Source of the DNA: a virus
DNA length: 36,121 nucleotides
IMG/VR virus record: IMGVR_UViG_3300045961_000188
Coordinates: 1 to 36,121 of that record
Reading direction: 5' to 3' (one strand)
Position 1 is the stretch's first letter; each line of letters opens with the position of its first letter. Below are positions 1 through 35,870 of this stretch, one piece after another. Below the pieces are notes generated by a model, which worked only from the letters and a program-made list of their open reading frames with translations, had not been told where the DNA came from and made no database searches. The translations under genes were made by a program, and so were the position numbers.

Positions 1-169
1 ACGCGATGGACGGGTCGTATTCCTGGAGGTGAAGACGGCCGAAGGCAGGCAGTCCGAGTACCAGGAGCGGTTCGAGGCGGACGTCACCGCGCATGGTGGC
101 GAGTACCGGATCACACGAGGCATCGAAGACATCTGGGACTTGAGGTGGTGCCATGGCACGTCTGCGTAA
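1..169 (+). CDS. VRR-NUC family nuclease, C-terminal fragment
   Basis: This is the last 55 codons of a gene whose start lies left of the window; the open frame runs from base 2 to the TAA at 167-169. The fragment has the signature of the VRR-NUC branch of PD-(D/E)XK nucleases: a hydrophobic strand ending in LEVK (the E-x-K catalytic pair), then a Gly-Arg-Gln turn, a conserved QERF helix, and a closing strand GGEYRITRGIEDI. Stand-alone phage VRR-NUC proteins are thought to act on branched or replicating DNA, as Holliday-junction-type or repair nucleases. It overlaps the replication initiator start by 17 bases, which fits a shared early replication operon. Family assignment rests on the C-terminal half only; the first catalytic acidic residue is outside the window. 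Confidence 0.75.
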   Translation, partial: RDGRVVFLEVKTAEGRQSEYQERFEADVTAHGGEYRITRGIEDIWDLRWCHGTSA

Positions 170-1184
170 CCGCATCGTCAAGGCCGACATCAACACGGAT
201 CCCGAGCTGCTGCGCTGGCATAGAGACAAGCGCTACACCTACCAGAAGATCTGGCAGATGGCCGAAGACTCAGGGTGTCTCGAGGATGACCCGTTCGGGT
301 GGAAACTTACCGCCTGGCCAAGCCCGCTGGACGCCGACATCACCGTGGAGGTCCTGACTCGGTGGCGAGATGAACTGGTCGAGGCGAAGAAGCTCATCCC
401 CTACAAGGCGGAGGGCAAAGACTACCTCTACATCAAGACCTTCCATCAGCACGAGCACCCACGCAATCCACAGCCCAATGATCTGCCGCTGCCTCCTTGG
501 GTGACGTTCGTCTACATCGAGGTCCCACGCTCCGACGGCCGGAAGAACAAGGTCTATAGGTATGACGTCAACGAGGCCCTACTGCCGGCACTCTATAGAT
601 GCTCTGTTGTAGACGAGGCTTTAGAAAGCCAAAAGCTCGGTACGGAGTCGGTACCGACTCGGTACCGACTCCGTACCGAGTCCCCTGTCCGGTCCAGTCC
701 GGTCCGGTCCAGAACTAATCTCTCCGAGGGGAGCGCCGCAAGCGGCGACTCACCTGTGGATAACTTTTCAGAGGAGGACGAGCCGGACGCCTTTGCCGAC
801 ATCGACTTTGGGGAGGAGGAAGACGAGCCGGAGGTGAAGGCCAAAGACCTGGTGGCGTTCTACGTTGCTGAGACCAAGCGCGTCTGTCGCAGCGTACCTA
901 AGCAAAAGGACATTGACGCTGTGGCCGGCATCGTGGCCGATCGGCTGAAAGCCGGCAGAGATCCCGACATGATCAAAGCCGCCATCCGCAAGCTCATCGT
1001 CGACGGCAAACCTCCAGGTATCCTCAAGACCCTCATCGAGGAAGCGTTCCAGACAGCACCTCGAGACACGAGCGCCAAGGCCCCGCCCTTGAGCGAGGAG
1101 GAGCGAGAGGCTGGGCTCGCGGTAGCGCGCGAAGGACTGGAGCGCCTCAGATCGCTGGGTGCGCAGAGGGCGGCAGCGCCATGA
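153..1184 (+). CDS. Phage replication initiator / replisome-organiser-like protein
   Basis: The protein has 343 residues. Residues 1-125 have the pattern of the winged-helix domain that opens many phage replisome organisers: MARLRNR start, a short helix with YTYQKIWQMAEDSG, then LIPYKAEGKDYLYIKTFHQHEHP. Residues 155-225 form a low-complexity Ser/Arg then Asp/Glu linker. Residues 228-343 form a second helical domain (KDLVAFYVAETKRV and onward) that could bind a helicase loader or helicase; this is inferred from position. The linker is encoded by unusual palindromic and repeated DNA with a DnaA box, as expected for an origin inside the initiator gene. The ATG at 153 lies in a 17-base overlap with the nuclease gene. 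The 3' end overlaps the next gene as ATGA. No Walker motif is seen, so it is not the helicase itself. Confidence 0.65.
   Translation: MARLRNRIVKADINTDPELLRWHRDKRYTYQKIWQMAEDSGCLEDDPFGWKLTAWPSPLDADITVEVLTRWRDELVEAKKLIPYKAEGKDYLYIKTFHQHEHPRNPQPNDLPLPPWVTFVYIEVPRSDGRKNKVYRYDVNEALLPALYRCSVVDEALESQKLGTESVPTRYRLRTESPVRSSPVRSRTNLSEGSAASGDSPVDNFSEEDEPDAFADIDFGEEEDEPEVKAKDLVAFYVAETKRVCRSVPKQKDIDAVAGIVADRLKAGRDPDMIKAAIRKLIVDGKPPGILKTLIEEAFQTAPRDTSAKAPPLSEEEREAGLAVAREGLERLRSLGAQRAAAP
636..680. repeat. 45-bp near-perfect palindrome (22-bp arms, 1-base centre)
   Basis: Bases 636-657 and 659-680 are exact reverse complements, separated only by C658. The arms are built from the shorter unit CGGTACCGACTC and its complement. 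It lies in the linker-coding part of the replication initiator gene and is followed by direct repeats of a GGTCC-based unit at 687-711. Such symmetry is unlikely by chance in coding DNA. Confidence 0.9.
636..763. other. Candidate phage replication origin inside the initiator gene
   Basis: Three elements lie within 130 bases: the 45-bp palindrome at 636-680, short direct repeats of GTCCGGTCC-type units at 687-711, and a consensus DnaA box at 755-763 (TGTGGATAA, reading TTATCCACA on the minus strand). A second small palindrome, CGCCGCAAGCGGCG, sits at 734-747. Phage initiators often bind iterons within their own gene, as lambda O does. The elements are visible directly; origin function is inferred. 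No long AT-rich unwinding stretch is obvious. Confidence 0.6.
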
Positions 1185-1396
1185 CCCCCCGCATCCCCTC
1201 CTGGGAGCGTCCCGACATCGACGCAGATCTCCAGGCCGCCTTCCTGGAGACCGAAGAGAAGGCCGATCGGCTCACCGACGGCATCGTGGTCCTGGTGGTC
1301 GAGAAGGTCCGGGGCCACGTCCGAGCCTTCACCTGCCGCACACGAGACGGCGCATCGATAGCATCCGTCATGACCGAACCGCCAAGGAGGCGCTGA
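1181..1396 (+). CDS. Small protein of unknown function, replication operon
   Basis: The protein has 71 residues and no family is recognised. It begins at an ATG whose first bases overlap the stop of the replication initiator (ATGA at 1181-1184), so translation is probably coupled. Its own TGA shares one base with the ATG of the next gene. The N-terminal half is acidic with a predicted helix (residues 14-30), followed by a strand-rich basic segment (VVLVVEKVRGHVRAF) and an Arg-rich tail. The tight coupling on both sides supports it being real. A role beside replication is inferred from position only. Confidence 0.6.
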   Translation: MTPRIPSWERPDIDADLQAAFLETEEKADRLTDGIVVLVVEKVRGHVRAFTCRTRDGASIASVMTEPPRRR

Positions 1397-1947
1397 TGCA
1401 ACCTGTAGCTACGCAGCAGCAGCAAGACAGCGAGCACTTCTGGGAGTTCGAGGATATCGACGATCTCAAGCGCGCCCTGGGGGAGTACCAAGCACTCCTG
1501 GACGGCATGCTCCTACGCAAGTACGGCAAGGAAGAGGTCGGTGGGGCAGCAGAGCGTCCGACACCCCAGCAGGTCGAGGAGTTCGAGGCGGCCGTCATGA
1601 GGCAGCGCTCGACCATCGACATCGCCATGGAACACATCGAGGACCGTTACAAGACCTGGTGGCGGGTGATCGACCTGTACTACCGCCAGGGCCTATCGAC
1701 CGAGGCCCAGGGCTGGCTGGTGCTCATGAGCCGGCTGGGTATGAGGCACAAGAGCTGCCCCCCGCTCGTGCGCTGCACCCTGCCCCGCGGTGACGAGTTT
1801 GTCGACAAGCGGCTTGAGATATCCAAGTGCAAAGAGGCTGCGAGCCTCGACTGTGCATGCGACTTCTACATCTTCCGGCGCATGCTCGACTACGCCACAG
1901 AGACGCTTTGGCGGGCGATCCAAAGACGCCACGAGTGGAAACCTTGA
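1396..1947 (+). CDS. Putative late-gene regulator (sigma-like / antiterminator-like), function uncertain
   Basis: The protein has 183 residues. The ATG at 1396 is chosen because AAGGAGG at 1384-1390 lies just upstream and the start overlaps the previous stop by one base. Residues 70-115 (helix, then RYKTWWRVIDLYYRQGLS) resemble the compact helical module of phage sigma-like or ArpU/RinA-type late regulators, where a segment of this kind precedes the DNA-contacting helix. The C-terminal half contains five cysteines (C121, C127, C145, C153, C155) that might bind metal. Position is the best clue: it is the last gene before the small terminase, and a promoter-plus-terminator pair starts at its stop codon, as with lambda Q and its target. 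Family similarity is weak and the function is inference. Confidence 0.4.
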   Translation: MQPVATQQQQDSEHFWEFEDIDDLKRALGEYQALLDGMLLRKYGKEEVGGAAERPTPQQVEEFEAAVMRQRSTIDIAMEHIEDRYKTWWRVIDLYYRQGLSTEAQGWLVLMSRLGMRHKSCPPLVRCTLPRGDEFVDKRLEISKCKEAASLDCACDFYIFRRMLDYATETLWRAIQRRHEWKP

Positions 1948-1972
1948 CAAGTCGTACGCCCATGGTGTACCT
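1944..1972 (+). promoter_or_regulatory. Candidate late promoter
   Basis: A perfect TTGACA (-35) lies at 1944-1949 and overlaps the stop codon of the preceding gene. The -10 region is poor; the best candidates are TGTACC at 1966-1971 (spacing 16) and TACCTT at 1968-1973 or nearby. A weak -10 would suit an activated or antiterminated late promoter. The short leader then runs into the terminator at 2009-2036. Confidence 0.4.
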
Positions 1973-2008
1973 TGGCGTCGGTAGTGCGGGAGAACTGCGC
2001 GCTAAATG

Positions 2009-2036
2009 GGTCGCCGGCGAGGCGGCCTTTTTCTTT
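2009..2036 (+). terminator. Intrinsic terminator upstream of the late operon
   Basis: The stem GGTCGCC (2009-2015) pairs with GGCGGCC (2021-2027) with one G-U wobble and a 5-base loop GGCGA, followed by TTTTTCTTT at 2028-2036. It sits between the possible late regulator and the small terminase gene, 60-90 bases after a candidate promoter. It may block late transcription until antitermination. Confidence 0.7.
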
Positions 2037-2055
2037 GCCCGAAGGAGGTCGAGAT

Positions 2056-2628
2056 GTGACCGCTCGCAGACCGCCGCGCAAGGACCAGCCCACCTACACG
2101 GAAGAGCAGAAGGCCCAGGCGCGCAAGCTCTACGTCTCGGACGGCTCACGCGCCGCCTCCCGGGTCATAGGCTGTTCGGAGCCGGCGGTGCGGCGCTGGG
2201 TCAGGGAGTGGGAAGCCAAGACCGGCGAAAAGCTGAGCCCGCCGACCGCCAACATCACCGCGGGCGTCCAAGCGCAGAACGCGCGCATCGCCGCCAAGAG
2301 GGCCAAGATCAAGGAGCGCTTGTTGGACGAGGCGCTCTACTGCATGGATGCCATCCACAACAAGCACATCGACTTCAAGGGCGTGAACGTCCAAGAGGTG
2401 GCGTACCCCGTGGCGCCAGCTGCTGCCGTGCAGAACTACGCGACCTCCGTCGGGATCCTGATCGACAAGTTCCGTCTCGAGAACGGCGAGTCCACGTCGC
2501 GCGACGAGGTGATCACCGTTGACAAGTTGGACGCAGAGATCGCGAGACTCGCGGCCGAGGTCGGACGTCGTGAACTTGCCGACACCGGAACTACTCAGCC
2601 GACTGGAGGCGCTGAAGGCCCGGCGTGA
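2056..2628 (+). CDS. terS: Terminase small subunit
   Basis: The protein has 190 residues from a GTG at 2056, placed 7 bases after GAAGGAGG (2041-2048); an earlier in-frame start would run through the terminator hairpin. Residues 15-50 form a helix-turn-helix (EEQKAQARKLYVSDGSRAAS then VIGCSEPAVRRWVREW), the DNA-recognition module of small terminases. The middle is helical, with a basic stretch (IAAKRAKIKERLLDEAL), and the C-terminus has a helix suited to oligomerisation (LDAEIARLAAEVGRRE). The 3' end overlaps the large subunit by 59 bases, the usual arrangement for the pair. It would recognise phage DNA and deliver it to the packaging motor at the portal. Confidence 0.8.
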   Translation: MTARRPPRKDQPTYTEEQKAQARKLYVSDGSRAASRVIGCSEPAVRRWVREWEAKTGEKLSPPTANITAGVQAQNARIAAKRAKIKERLLDEALYCMDAIHNKHIDFKGVNVQEVAYPVAPAAAVQNYATSVGILIDKFRLENGESTSRDEVITVDKLDAEIARLAAEVGRRELADTGTTQPTGGAEGPA

Positions 2629-4123
2629 CAAACTGGCGGAGCTGGAAGCGCTCAAGGAGCAGCAGCGCCAGGCCGAGGCGGAGCAGGAAGCTGGGGCCCG
2701 GCGTGACAAACTGAGGCCCTACTGGGACGATCCGGTCGGCTTTGTGCGTGACTGCTTCGCCTGGCCAGAGGGCAAAGGTCCGGCGGCCTATCAGAACAGG
2801 GCGCTCGCGGCGCTGCCCAAGAAGAAGCGCGTCGCGGTCCGCGGGCCTCACGGTCTGGGCAAGACAGCGATGAACGCCTGGACGGTCCTGTGGTTCGGCA
2901 TCACCCGTGACGGTCTTGACTGGAAGGTCATCACCACAGCGAGCGCGTGGCGGCAACTCGAGGTGTACCTCTGGCCCGAAGTGCACAAGTGGGCCCGGAT
3001 GCTACGTTGGGACGTGCTGGGGCGCGAGCCCTTCGGCATCAACGAGCTCCTGATCCTGAACCTGAAGCTGGCGACCGGCGCCGCTAGCGCCGTAGCCTCC
3101 GACCGGCCGGAGCTCATCGAGGGCGCCCACGCCGACCACATCCTGTACATCTTCGACGAATCCAAGACCATACCCGAGGGCACGTTCGACGCAGCTGAGG
3201 GTGCGTTCTCCGGCGCCGGCGAGGGCAGCGAGCTCGAAGCCCTGGCGCTGGCCTGCTCTACCCCGGGTGAGCCGATCGGGCGCTTCTACGACATCCACAA
3301 ACGCAAGCCCGGCTTCGAGGACTGGGACGTTCATCACGTCACCGTGGATGAGGCGATCGCTGCGGGCCGCGTGAGCGAGCAGTGGGTGGAGCAGCGCGCC
3401 AAGCAGTGGGGCCGCAAGTCCGCCGTGTTCATCAACCGCGTGCTGGGTGATTTCGCGAGCTCCGACGAGGACTCGGTCATCCCGCTTGCTTGGGTAGAAG
3501 CGGCCAACGCGCGCTGGGAGATGGGGGAGACAGCTGGACCGTTCACCGCCGTGGGCGTCGACGTGGCCCGCAGCGGCTCCGACCTGTCGGTCCTAGCCAA
3601 GCGCTACGGCTGGCGCGTCGACTCGCTGGAAGGCTTCAGCATCGCAGACACCATGGAGACCACCGGCCGCGTGGCTGGAGTACTCAAGCGCGGCGGCTAC
3701 GCTGTCGTCGACGTCATCGGCATCGGCGCCGGCGTTGTGGACCGACTTCGGGAGCAGGGCTTCCAGGTGATCGCCTTCAACGCAGGGGCGGGCACGGTCC
3801 GCCTGGACTCATCTGGCGAACTCGGTTTCCTCAACTGCCGCTCTGCCGCCTGGTGGTACATGCGCGAAGTACTCGACCCGACCAGTGGTTGCCCGGTGGC
3901 CCTGCCGCCCGATGACATGCTGACCGGTGACCTCACCGCTCCCAAGTGGCGGGTGACCTCCGGCGGGCGCATCCAAGTCGAGAGCAAAGACGAGATCCGC
4001 AAGCGTCTGGGGCGATCGACCGACCACGGCGACGCGGTCATCCAGTCCTTCTGGGTGCCAGACGTGGAAGATACGGACGAGTACATCGTCTACGACGAAC
4101 CTGTGATCATCAGCCGCTATTAG
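2570..4123 (+). CDS. terL: Terminase large subunit (packaging ATPase and nuclease)
   Basis: The protein has 517 residues from the GTG at 2570, chosen for the GAGGTCGG upstream; a TTG at 2519 is possible but has no Shine-Dalgarno. After an N-terminal coiled coil (8-48) comes the ATPase domain: Walker A GPHGLGKT at 92-99 and Walker B ILYIFDE ending in D196-E197. The C-terminal RNase H-like nuclease shows D331 (GVDVARSGSD), D381 (VVDVIGIGAG) and D486/D489 (STDHGDAV), the acidic triad that cuts the concatemer. It drives DNA into the prohead through the portal. The length is typical. The motifs make this the best-supported gene in the window. Confidence 0.96.
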   Translation: MNLPTPELLSRLEALKARRDKLAELEALKEQQRQAEAEQEAGARRDKLRPYWDDPVGFVRDCFAWPEGKGPAAYQNRALAALPKKKRVAVRGPHGLGKTAMNAWTVLWFGITRDGLDWKVITTASAWRQLEVYLWPEVHKWARMLRWDVLGREPFGINELLILNLKLATGAASAVASDRPELIEGAHADHILYIFDESKTIPEGTFDAAEGAFSGAGEGSELEALALACSTPGEPIGRFYDIHKRKPGFEDWDVHHVTVDEAIAAGRVSEQWVEQRAKQWGRKSAVFINRVLGDFASSDEDSVIPLAWVEAANARWEMGETAGPFTAVGVDVARSGSDLSVLAKRYGWRVDSLEGFSIADTMETTGRVAGVLKRGGYAVVDVIGIGAGVVDRLREQGFQVIAFNAGAGTVRLDSSGELGFLNCRSAAWWYMREVLDPTSGCPVALPPDDMLTGDLTAPKWRVTSGGRIQVESKDEIRKRLGRSTDHGDAVIQSFWVPDVEDTDEYIVYDEPVIISRY

Positions 4124-27622: not shown

Positions 27623-27694
27623 AGCGCCGTAGAGCAGTGGTAGCTCGCTAGGCTCATATCCTGGAGGTCGGAGGTTCGAACCCTCCCGGCGCCA
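27623..27694 (+). tRNA. tRNA with CAT anticodon, initiator-like (Met)
   Basis: The 72-base cloverleaf folds fully: acceptor 27623-27629 with 27687-27693, D stem GAGC/GCTC with loop AGTGGTA, anticodon stem CTAGG/CCTGG with loop CTCATAT (anticodon CAT at 27655-27657), variable AGGTC, and T arm GGAGG-TTCGAAC-CCTCC. The 1:72 pair is mismatched (A and C), and the 11:24 pair is A-U, both hallmarks of initiator tRNA; most elongators have the reverse at 11:24. Of the three G-C pairs of the initiator anticodon stem, two are present and position 29:41 is A-U. CCA is not encoded. Elongator Met or Ile (CAU) remains possible. Confidence 0.85.
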
Positions 27695-27697
27695 CTT

Positions 27698-27744: not shown

Positions 27745-28500
27745 CTAGAGGTAGTCGCGAATCAGGACGAACGTGTAGCCGCGCGCCTTCAGCCCTCGGA
27801 TGATTCCCGGCAGAGCCTTGGGGCAGATAGGGTTCTGCGTGTGCATCAGGACGATGTTGACCGCTCGCGCCCTCAGCTTGCCGCTTGGCCAGTAGAGTGT
27901 CGGATGCACTTTGTAGACAACCTGCTCGATGCAGCCCTGCACCGTCTGGCCGTAGGCGGCATCATTGGCGTTCAGTGACCAAAGGACGTTGACGTAGCCC
28001 GTGGCCCGCAAGACGCGCATCACTCTGGTCTTCGGCTGGATAGAGCCCCACGTCCCGCCCATCTTGCCACCGGGAGTCCGGTAGAGCGGCTTGGGCGTGA
28101 CCCCCTGGGCTTGCAGGGCCAGGCGGCAGTTGCGTATCTGCCACATAATCTGCCCATCGGTCTTGTAGGCAGTCAGGTACTTGTGCGTGTAGCCGTGGCT
28201 TCCGAAGTCGTGGCCTTCTGCGATGGCCCGTTGCACAAGCGCAGAAGTGTTAGCAAGGCCCTTGCCAGTCGGGAAGAAGGTCGCCTTGACACCTTCGGCC
28301 GCCAACACGTCGAGGATCTCGGTCATGTAGGCGTCGTCCCAGATGTCGTCGAAGGTGAGCGCCACGACCTTCTGAGTCGTGGGTATGCGGTAGTAGTTGG
28401 TGCCCACCGGCACATGCGCGAAGGCAGTAGTGCTGAGCACCACCGCGAGCACGAGCGCCAGGGCTACGATCAGGACTAGGTTTCTGCTGCGATGTTTCAT
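27745..28500 (-). CDS. Secreted polysaccharide deacetylase (NodB family)
   Basis: The protein has 251 residues. The ATG (28498-28500) is preceded by AAGGGGGACCG. A signal peptide occupies residues 1-28 (VLIVALALVLAVVLSTTAFA). All NodB motifs are visible: TFDD with D51-D52, SHGYTH with H102 and H106, YRTPGGK with R141, LWSLNANDA, and IVLMHTQN with H220. The enzyme removes N-acetyl groups from peptidoglycan GlcNAc or another sugar polymer outside the membrane. It is on the leftward strand after the integrase, with its own candidate promoter, so it may be expressed in lysogens and change the wall, for example making it lysozyme-resistant. Substrate is unknown. Confidence 0.9.
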   Translation of the reverse strand: MKHRSRNLVLIVALALVLAVVLSTTAFAHVPVGTNYYRIPTTQKVVALTFDDIWDDAYMTEILDVLAAEGVKATFFPTGKGLANTSALVQRAIAEGHDFGSHGYTHKYLTAYKTDGQIMWQIRNCRLALQAQGVTPKPLYRTPGGKMGGTWGSIQPKTRVMRVLRATGYVNVLWSLNANDAAYGQTVQGCIEQVVYKVHPTLYWPSGKLRARAVNIVLMHTQNPICPKALPGIIRGLKARGYTFVLIRDYL

Positions 28501-33560: not shown

Positions 33561-34660
33561 CACCGAGCCAAGCACTAGAGAAAGCAAGCCCGCAGGAACA
33601 GGCGCTCATGGCGGTCGCCGGGCAACTGCCGCAGGGAGTCGTGCAGTACTCAGCCTCAGGCGTGCTCATGGTGGACCTCACGAGCGACGAACTGCAGAAG
33701 CGGTACAACGTGCTCGCGCCGGCGGCCACCCTGGCCAAAGCCGATCGCAACTTCACACCGAGCCTGTCTCTCGTGAAGCTGAACCCGGACCCCATCAACG
33801 GCGGGGACTTCTACCCTATCGAGACCGAGGGCTCCGGAGACAACAAGAAGGTCAAGATGGTCGCGCTCACCAAGCGCGCTCTTGACCAGATCGCCCAGAA
33901 GGCCGGCATCCAAGACACAGGGCCCGAGATCGTCTACTTCGGCAACCGCAAGGAGAACGTGCGCATCACCTGGCACGCCAAGGTGCGCAACCCGGACGGC
34001 TGGACGTACCGCGAGATCGCCGGAAGCCAGGAGTGGGTAGAGGAAGCCGAGATGGCGCTGCTCAAGAGTGCCCCTCCGGCGTGGGCTCAGAAGAGCGACA
34101 GCGCCTACAACGAGTGGTGGGCCAAGAACTGGTGGGGACGGGTGCACAAGTTCCGCATCCGCATGACCGAGACCAAGGCCCGCCTGGCAGCCTATCGGCA
34201 GGAGCTCACGGTCAAGCAGAAATACACCCCGGAGGAGGCCCACAAGCCCTTCCTGGTGATGAGCCTCAGCTACACCCCGGACACGTCAGACCCGGCGGTG
34301 CTGGGCGCCCTCATGGGCCAAGGCCAGCAGGCACAGCAGGCACTCTTCGGTGCGGTCGTGCAGGCCGAGCAACGCGCCATCGAGGCAGCCGACGCGGCGT
34401 CAGAGACGGTAGACACGGAGACCGGCGAGATCATCGACGTGGGGCCCGAGACCAACGGACCGCGCCCCACTTCTGACATCCAGATCCCGCGCGGCCCCAT
34501 GGCCGGCATGCTCCTCTCTGAGGTCTGCCAGCAGCACCCCGACTACGCGAGGCAGAAATTGCTCCACACCCCGCAGCTGGGCCCCGACACGGAATCCTGG
34601 CTGCGCTACTTCCATGGGGAGGAGGCGGTGAGCGATGACCTCAGCGATATCACCTTCTAG
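33557..34660 (+). CDS. Putative recombination-associated protein
   Basis: The protein has 367 residues from the ATG at 33557, preceded by AAGGGGGA and overlapping the previous stop. Residues 40-180 contain LQKRYNVLAPAATLAKADRN, DFYPIETEG, and KVKMVALTKRALDQIAQKAG; residues 120-160 have NVRITWHAKVRNPDGWTYRE. The combination, plus TETGEIIDVGPE near the C-terminus, is similar to phage proteins often found beside recombination nucleases and partly like RecT-type annealing proteins. It overlaps the SbcD-like gene, which supports a joint function as nuclease plus annealing or loading partner. Family is not certain. Confidence 0.5.
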   Translation: MTPSQALEKASPQEQALMAVAGQLPQGVVQYSASGVLMVDLTSDELQKRYNVLAPAATLAKADRNFTPSLSLVKLNPDPINGGDFYPIETEGSGDNKKVKMVALTKRALDQIAQKAGIQDTGPEIVYFGNRKENVRITWHAKVRNPDGWTYREIAGSQEWVEEAEMALLKSAPPAWAQKSDSAYNEWWAKNWWGRVHKFRIRMTETKARLAAYRQELTVKQKYTPEEAHKPFLVMSLSYTPDTSDPAVLGALMGQGQQAQQALFGAVVQAEQRAIEAADAASETVDTETGEIIDVGPETNGPRPTSDIQIPRGPMAGMLLSEVCQQHPDYARQKLLHTPQLGPDTESWLRYFHGEEAVSDDLSDITF

Positions 34661-35870
34661 CCTGCGCATCGCCCACTGCGGAGATCTACATCTAGGCGCG
34701 AGCTACCACCTGGGCGACGAAGACAAGGGGGGCGTGAACGGCCGCCTCTACGACTATCGCCGCGCCTGGGTGACCTCCTGCGAGCGGATGGTCCGTGAGA
34801 AGGTGGACCTGGTGCTCATGGCTGGGGACGCTTTCGACAGCGCCAAGCCGACGCCCACCGAGCAGGCCGTGTTCCGCGTGGGCCTGGACCTGTTGGACGA
34901 CGCCGGTATCCCCGTGGTGATGATCACCGGAAACCACGACGTTCCGCGCCAGATAGGCCGCGCTCACGCCCTGGCCATCTTCGATGAGTACAAGCTCGTT
35001 ACCATCGTCGATAGGCCGCAGGTGGTCTATGCGGGACCTATGAGCCTGCCGGTCGCTTGCTTCCCCTATCCCAACCGCGCCTACATAGCCGCGCAGGATC
35101 CCGAGTTCGAGAAGTTGACCATCGATGAGCAGAACGCCAAGATCGTGGACCTGTCACTGGCCACCCTTAGAGGTTTGGCGGCAGAGGCGGAGCAGGATTT
35201 CGGCGCCTTCGGCGCCTTCGGCGCTGTCCTCTTGGGCCATGCTTCCATCAGCGGCTCCAAGGTAGGGGCTGAAGGGTCCACCGCGTTCTTCCGTGAGGCC
35301 GTGCTGCCGCTGTCAGAGCTGAGGGGTTTGCCGTTTGTCGCTCAGTGCTGGGGCCATCTTCATAGGGCGCAGGTGTTGAGAGACGTTCCCCTTATAGCCT
35401 ACTGCGGCTCTATCGAGCGCACGGACTTCTCAGAGGCAGACGAGGACAAGGGCTGGTGGCTGCTGGACCTGCGAGACGACGGTACCGTCGTCATTAGTGA
35501 ATGGCACAGCTCACAGCCCCGTCAGTTCGTAGACATCGATATCAGCCTCGACGCCATCGAGCAGTACACCTTTCCAGACTACAAGGGCGCCATCGTGCGC
35601 GCCAGGTACACCGCCACCCCCGAGCAGGCCAAGACGGTAGACCATGCCGCCATCCGTCGCGCTCTGTACGCCGCTGGCGCGGTCAAGGTCCATGGCCCGA
35701 TCGCCAACATAACCCACGGCGTCACGGAGGCATCCGACCTCGTGACCGAAGAGACAGACATGCTGACCGGCTGGCACCAGTACGCAACGCTTCAGGGCCT
35801 CAGCGGCTCGCAGCGTGAGCGCCTGGACCGGAAGGCCGGAGAATCACTGGAGGCAACATGCCAAGCCTAG
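34635..35870 (+). CDS. sbcD: SbcD/Mre11-like DNA exonuclease subunit
   Basis: The protein has 411 residues from the ATG at 34635, with GGGAGGAGG just upstream; it overlaps the previous gene by 26 bases. The metallophosphoesterase motifs are in order: GDLHLG with D17 and H19, MAGDAFDS with D65, TGNHDVPR with N100-H101-D102, LLGHAS with H202, and WGHLHRAQ with H240 and H242, then the typical PLIAYCGSIERTDFSE. Residues 285-411 fit the capping domain. With an SbcC-type ATPase, expected beyond the right edge, it would process DNA ends and hairpins, probably for phage recombination. Confidence 0.92.
   Translation: MTSAISPSSLRIAHCGDLHLGASYHLGDEDKGGVNGRLYDYRRAWVTSCERMVREKVDLVLMAGDAFDSAKPTPTEQAVFRVGLDLLDDAGIPVVMITGNHDVPRQIGRAHALAIFDEYKLVTIVDRPQVVYAGPMSLPVACFPYPNRAYIAAQDPEFEKLTIDEQNAKIVDLSLATLRGLAAEAEQDFGAFGAFGAVLLGHASISGSKVGAEGSTAFFREAVLPLSELRGLPFVAQCWGHLHRAQVLRDVPLIAYCGSIERTDFSEADEDKGWWLLDLRDDGTVVISEWHSSQPRQFVDIDISLDAIEQYTFPDYKGAIVRARYTATPEQAKTVDHAAIRRALYAAGAVKVHGPIANITHGVTEASDLVTEETDMLTGWHQYATLQGLSGSQRERLDRKAGESLEATCQA
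35199..35225 (+). repeat. Three tandem 9-bp units within the SbcD-like gene
   Basis: TTCGGCGCC occurs twice, then TTCGGCGCT, encoding FGAFGAFGA just before the LLGH motif. The unit length is a multiple of three, so copy-number changes would keep the frame. Confidence 0.85.

Follow-up and report, generated by a model that had tools for sequence, protein, structure and literature searches.

In lambda and the Stx phages the origin of replication lies in the middle of gene O, where the initiator binds iterons, four of them in lambda, with a second tier of sequence beside them (PMC7466680). An earlier reading of the present locus from its sequence alone was therefore correct in placing the repeats that lambda-type initiators bind within the genes of those initiators (PMC7466680). 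In phage SPP1, oriL is located in gene 38, and direct repeats inside this initiator gene are bound by its product, gp38 (PMC6316719). For the mycobacteriophage RepA prophages Miko and Jeeves, the initiator gene is sufficient for replication and the origin is presumed to lie within or next to repA (PMC7157519). Origins are unmapped for most temperate phages.

Here we analyse a viral contig over its whole length of 36,121 bases (the window). As in lambda and Stx O, its iterons occupy a central part of the initiator gene and a second tier adjoins them. Unlike the window, with its palindromic cores spaced 11 bp apart and its short tandem repeats, lambda O has longer iterons and an AT-rich tract. 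The window initiator also has no match to the O families in PHROG or Pfam, O-like C-terminal matches being confined to two relatives (L008 and L341). The SPP1 gp38 replisome organizer resembles the window in layout, with direct repeats within the initiator gene, yet neither a counterpart of its second, distant origin (oriR) nor an AT-rich DUE like that of SPP1 was found in the window. The RepA proteins of Miko and Jeeves, likened to the window by layout, have been described as related to the RepA proteins of plasmids. The RepA-like initiators of actinobacteriophages such as Fishburne, ODay and OneUp (phrog_2149) share with the window a homologous N-terminal domain and intragenic 11-bp iterons joined by a tier of short repeats, which in their case are the 8-bp GGAACAGG. 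These differ in having the core TCGCGA or others rather than GGTACC; they are without a long palindrome, and the TCGCGA class has an extra array in domain-coding DNA. We found no description of 11-bp intragenic iterons for this initiator family in the literature searched, which covered few subscription journals.

The initiator gene and its repeats

An actinobacterial host is likely, since the window terminase is similar to its counterparts in Streptomyces phage TurkishDelight (58%) and Actinoplanes phage phiAsp2 (54%). The N-terminal domain encoded by the open reading frame at 153-1184 matches three PHROG profiles, phrog_2149 (E=1e-12), phrog_16167 (E=1e-8) and phrog_1408 (E=1e-7), all annotated as 'replication initiation protein'. 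AlphaFold2 predicts an N-terminal winged-helix domain with confidence, and also a C-terminal helical domain, with a disordered linker between them. The profile matches and the predicted disorder of residues 152-227 bear out the initial description of this region as the linker of a replication initiator. The features discussed below are as follows.

153-1184, plus strand: replication initiator gene, 343 aa, with N-terminal winged-helix domain, disordered linker and C-terminal helical domain (PHROG profiles and AlphaFold2 model)
450-470, plus strand: candidate specificity segment H100-E-H-P-R104-N-P, aligned to HQ[RK][IV]X[KR]P of relatives
606-833, plus strand: linker-coding DNA hosting the array, residues 152-227, pLDDT < 50 (AlphaFold2)
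636-680, no strand assigned: 45-bp perfect palindrome (22+1+22), arms 636-657 and 659-680 with 1 nt between
637-647, plus strand: iteron 1, TCGGTACGGAG, core GGTACG with one symmetric mismatch, codon phase 1
648-658, plus strand: iteron 2, TCGGTACCGAC, core GGTACC, codon phase 0
659-669, plus strand: iteron 3, TCGGTACCGAC, core GGTACC, codon phase 2
670-680, plus strand: iteron 4, TCCGTACCGAG, core CGTACC, codon phase 1
684-712, plus strand: second tier, CCTGTCCGGTCCAG / CCGGTCCGGTCCAG, 5-bp GGTCC units from the lag-5 test, placed where relatives have 8-bp or 7/15-bp repeats
755-763, minus strand: single DnaA-box-like TTATCCACA, without conservation in relatives

The two 22-nt arms that the sequence-only reading reported are indeed exact reverse complements around one base. 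The longest palindrome arm elsewhere in the window is 10, and the maxima are 11 in 60 Markov-1 simulated windows and 12 in 2000 synonymous-codon shuffles of the initiator gene. The same bases also form a perfect-register tandem array of four 11-bp units (637-680), which the first reading missed. A two-tier intragenic origin of this family, as we define it, calls for three or more such units with a palindromic core in linker-coding DNA and for short tandem repeats on their 3' side. In the register of the relatives, each iteron consists of the 6-bp palindromic core GGTACC and a 5-bp spacer GA[CG]TC (GAGTC or GACTC), which fits the spacer of the TCGCGA class. Iterons 1 and 4 each carry one deviation in the core, and these are symmetric in placement. 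The 45-bp palindrome makes more sense as a tandem series of four 11-bp iterons, most of its symmetry arising from tandem palindromic cores with symmetric spacers.

The iterons occupy all three codon phases (1, 0, 2, 1), and a period of 11, which three does not divide, cannot arise as the by-product of a repeated peptide. The lag-11 score is 27.2, against a maximum of 15.8 in 600 codon shuffles across all tested lags not divisible by 3. Tolerating at most one mismatch, we find TCGGTACCGA at four places in the array and at two others in the window. The exact array pattern was not found in viral contigs, and an Rfam search of window positions 1-3000 gave no match.

Short tandem repeats lie directly 3' of the array. 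The GGTCC-type direct repeats reported there are real, with GGTCC at 691, 701 and 706, and the lag-5 score exceeds that of 600/600 synonymous-codon shuffles. An AT-rich unwinding region was not found beside the array, AT content being 28-44% in the 25-bp bins that follow it; the relatives are likewise flat in AT content beside theirs. No helicase loader was recognised adjoining the initiator gene. The interval from the GGTCC repeats to the DnaA-like box contains a GC-rich inverted repeat, CGCCGCAAGCGGCG (735-750), that folds as a small hairpin.

Arrays in divergent relatives

Close relatives of the window initiator were found neither in viral contigs, genome contigs and plasmids nor among phages at E 1e-5, and a portal scan gave none. 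A synteny route through terminase relatives (80 loci) led to an initiator of this family in only 1/47 records (L091). Subgroup-alignment scans and named phages together yielded about 190 loci, from which we analysed 92 representatives at 70% identity and 21 further genes. These relatives are remote, with 23-33% identity in the domain, and the window array is accordingly set against divergent genes throughout, none of them close.

In most relatives the array lies at the end of the domain-coding DNA, with 11-bp-spaced units first and short repeats after. The cores of about 110 divergent relatives include TCGCGA, TCASTGA, GCAC..TGC and AACnGTT, and also CTACGTAG-like sequences, where the window has GGTACC. 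The second tier is the 8-bp GGAACAGG in the actinophages and a 7/15-bp CTGATTC repeat in proteobacterial phages; the latter units (L173-L252) are pyrimidine-rich and the former purine-rich.

The relatives' arrays are conserved as DNA beyond the protein. Among the 92 representative genes, lag 11 exceeds the synonymous-codon null by more than three standard deviations in 60% and lag 8 in 59%, while the neighbouring lags 9, 10, 12 and 13 do so in just 0-3%. In 38 disjoint pairs, conserved residues have identical codons in 78% of cases in the linker, compared with 59% in the domain and 61% in the C-terminus. The sequence-only reading had proposed asking whether the palindrome is conserved more at the DNA than at the protein level. 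The answer is positive for 11-bp arrays in divergent relatives and negative for the overall palindrome, which is confined to the window: it is absent from about 130 related genes, whose longest arms are 12, 10 and 9.

Two relatives have further features. In the linker of L091 a second 11-bp array precedes a near-perfect inverted repeat, CTCCTACTCCTGTAG-GTA-CTACAGGAGTAGGAG (locus about 2050-2120), and GGAGAT repeats follow. In L120 (IMGVR_UViG_3300046507_000181) the initiator gene is apparently split over the contig ends, with pieces of the array at 90-275 and 39737, which suggests a circular and complete genome.

Covariation of one residue with the iteron core

The fifth residue, X, of an H-Q-x-x-X segment that follows the wing predicts the core in relatives. 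In 69 genes where X is D or N and the core is assignable, D goes with TCG..CGA (56/56) and N with TCA.TGA (13/13), with zero crossover (Fisher p 3e-14, kinship ignored). The X column, alone of all domain columns, reaches maximal mutual information with the core class, and leave-one-out accuracy is 100%. A chemical rationale may lie in protein-DNA contacts, with Asp directed towards C and Asn towards A.

Outside the set from which the rule was found, 13/13 assignable genes agree with it, a figure that rests on a later regular expression demanding 11/22-bp spacing. With the expression fixed beforehand and applied to H-Q-x-[IV]-D/N genes, the prediction is right in L268, L311, L315 and L341 and wrong in L337, where two stray TCGCG-like matches lie off the array; L319 and L339 are left undecided. 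Marinomonas phage P12026 is a strong case for covariation, as it combines N with TCACTGA/TCACGGA units despite its proteobacterial host. Switches between D and N number eight on the best tree, which is built from few columns, and one independent pair on well-supported (starred) branches; their phylogenetic independence is modest.

The rule has exceptions. Genes with HQKFD[KR]R (OneUp, Norvs and Lilas) have TGCGCC-like cores despite their D, and other D or N genes with different cores are L146, L157/L319 and L343. The code is therefore not one residue alone, and neighbouring residues matter. In proteobacterial relatives, where X is H, the next two residues fully separate AACnGTT from GCAC cores, and one more column, about ten positions on, separates them equally.

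In the window the H-Q-x-x-X-x-P segment follows the wing with Q replaced by E, and X is an arginine (R104, codon 462-464) that accompanies GGTACC, a pairing seen in this single case. The domain model places the segment as a strand (101-104) beside the N-terminal arm, after the wing. A PDB fold search with the domain returned generic winged helices only, with nothing at E below 0.001, and since it gave no DNA-bound homologue the covarying residue is left unplaced on the DNA.

In TCGCGA-class genes, two or three extra iterons lie within the winged-helix coding DNA (protein ARDPRE..., DNA GCGCGAGACCCTCGCGAG); at the corresponding place Asn-class genes have TCAGTGAGTCCTCATGAC, encoding SVSPHD. The core of this second array changes with the class, and therefore a core switch rewrites the protein there. 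In L006, L009 and L093-L155 the loop at gene nucleotides about 165-205 follows the iteron core, reading DPRETLARV or SPHDTLNRV. No second array was found in the domain-coding DNA of the window initiator.

Arrays of the 11-bp kind appear restricted to the initiator gene. TCGCGAN5TCGCGA occurs in 37/38 D-class phage records (26-78 kb) and TCASTGAN4TCASTGA in 10/11 N-class records, once or twice in each, and among the matches listed all are in the initiator locus; reversed-pattern controls gave 0 matches for either.

Origin function and its alternatives

We consider it likely that the window phage has its replication origin within the sequence that codes for the initiator, in the style of lambda O and SPP1. 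That an origin lies inside the initiator gene, as the sequence-only reading suggested, is well supported by the comparison with relatives. The arrays, their constraint at the DNA level, their restriction to one gene, the covariation and the examples of lambda O and SPP1 gp38 together suggest that the initiator most likely binds iterons in its own coding sequence. We infer from the sequences and these analogies that it would bind the cores as a dimer and that replication would start at the array. The winged-helix N-terminal domain, probably dimeric, would bind each palindromic core (GGTACC in the window). With cores 11 bp apart, about one helical turn, four bound units would lie on one face of the DNA and could multimerise into a complex of initiator and DNA. 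Strand opening or helicase loading would then probably take place at the short repeats that adjoin the array on its 3' side. Because the linker is disordered, it is free to host the array.

The array could instead be an operator, through which the initiator represses or blocks transcription of its own gene while replication starts elsewhere. Palindromic cores bound by winged-helix proteins are typical of operators, and covariation speaks for cognate binding, not for origin function. Against this stand the position of the array, about 480 bp inside the gene and away from any promoter position, the second tier of tandem repeats that follows it in most relatives, and the annotation of the family as replication initiators. 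Where phage initiators are known to have repeats in the gene that encodes them, moreover, the repeats serve as origins, and we regard autoregulation as unlikely. A further proposal was combined initiation, in which the phage initiator would bind at the palindrome and host DnaA would be recruited by the TTATCCACA box. This box is real, at a distance of 75 bp from the array, and the 36 kb contain no other exact match (with one mismatch, 3 are found in the window and 2.26 expected). Nevertheless, of 113 genes only that of the window has such a box beyond the DNA-binding domain (1/113), against 0.86 expected from synonymous-codon shuffling, which is about the chance rate, and no conserved DnaA boxes were found near the array among these genes. 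The box is probably not part of the system, and joint initiation with the host protein appears very improbable.

It is just as doubtful that one long palindrome is the element, acting as a cruciform or hairpin, e.g. as a single-strand initiation site. Its 22-bp arms are perfect and a single strand of the region folds strongly (z = -5.6), but no other related gene has it, whereas 11-bp arrays recur in most, and its symmetry comes mostly from the tandem cores and their spacers. The remaining explanation, that the repeats stem from low complexity at the protein level or from slippage in an unconstrained linker, has hardly any likelihood in our view. The linker is disordered and slippage is a source of tandem repeats; the periods 11, 8, 7 and 5 are nonetheless not multiples of 3, the repeats exceed codon shuffles that keep the protein, codons in the linker are conserved, and the core covaries with a residue outside the linker.

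Returning to the origin built into its initiator gene, we lean towards a wider interpretation, namely that these loci represent a very broad, undescribed class of phage origin whose address is written into the initiator gene itself. The iterons would lie in the linker-coding DNA and, in some phages, also in the codons of the DNA-binding domain, while the segment after the wing would set the core, with Asp for TCG..CGA, Asn for TCA.TGA, Lys with CTACGTAG and, probably, Arg for GGTACC. Specificity and target would thus co-evolve in one gene, and if this is true no core changes without altering part of the initiator protein. In many actinobacterial and proteobacterial phages, origins would become locatable from sequence through a simple signature in the initiator linker, namely palindromic iterons of 11 bp accompanied by short repeats. 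The covariation of residue and core amounts to a directly testable recognition code, which could predict phages that share or interfere with each other's origins. Intragenic origins could furthermore supply compact replicons for actinobacterial genetics.

Other genes of the window include a partial gene at the contig start, just upstream of the initiator (1-169, plus strand), whose C-terminal end is VRR-NUC nuclease-like by eye only. A polysaccharide deacetylase domain (PF01522, E=6e-26) is encoded on the minus strand at 27745-28500, adjoining a tRNA-Met gene (27623-27695). An SbcD-like calcineurin-type phosphoesterase (phrog_100, PF00149) is encoded at 34635-35870 on the plus strand; this family is a palindrome-specific nuclease subunit, and it occurs here in a phage with a 45-bp palindrome.
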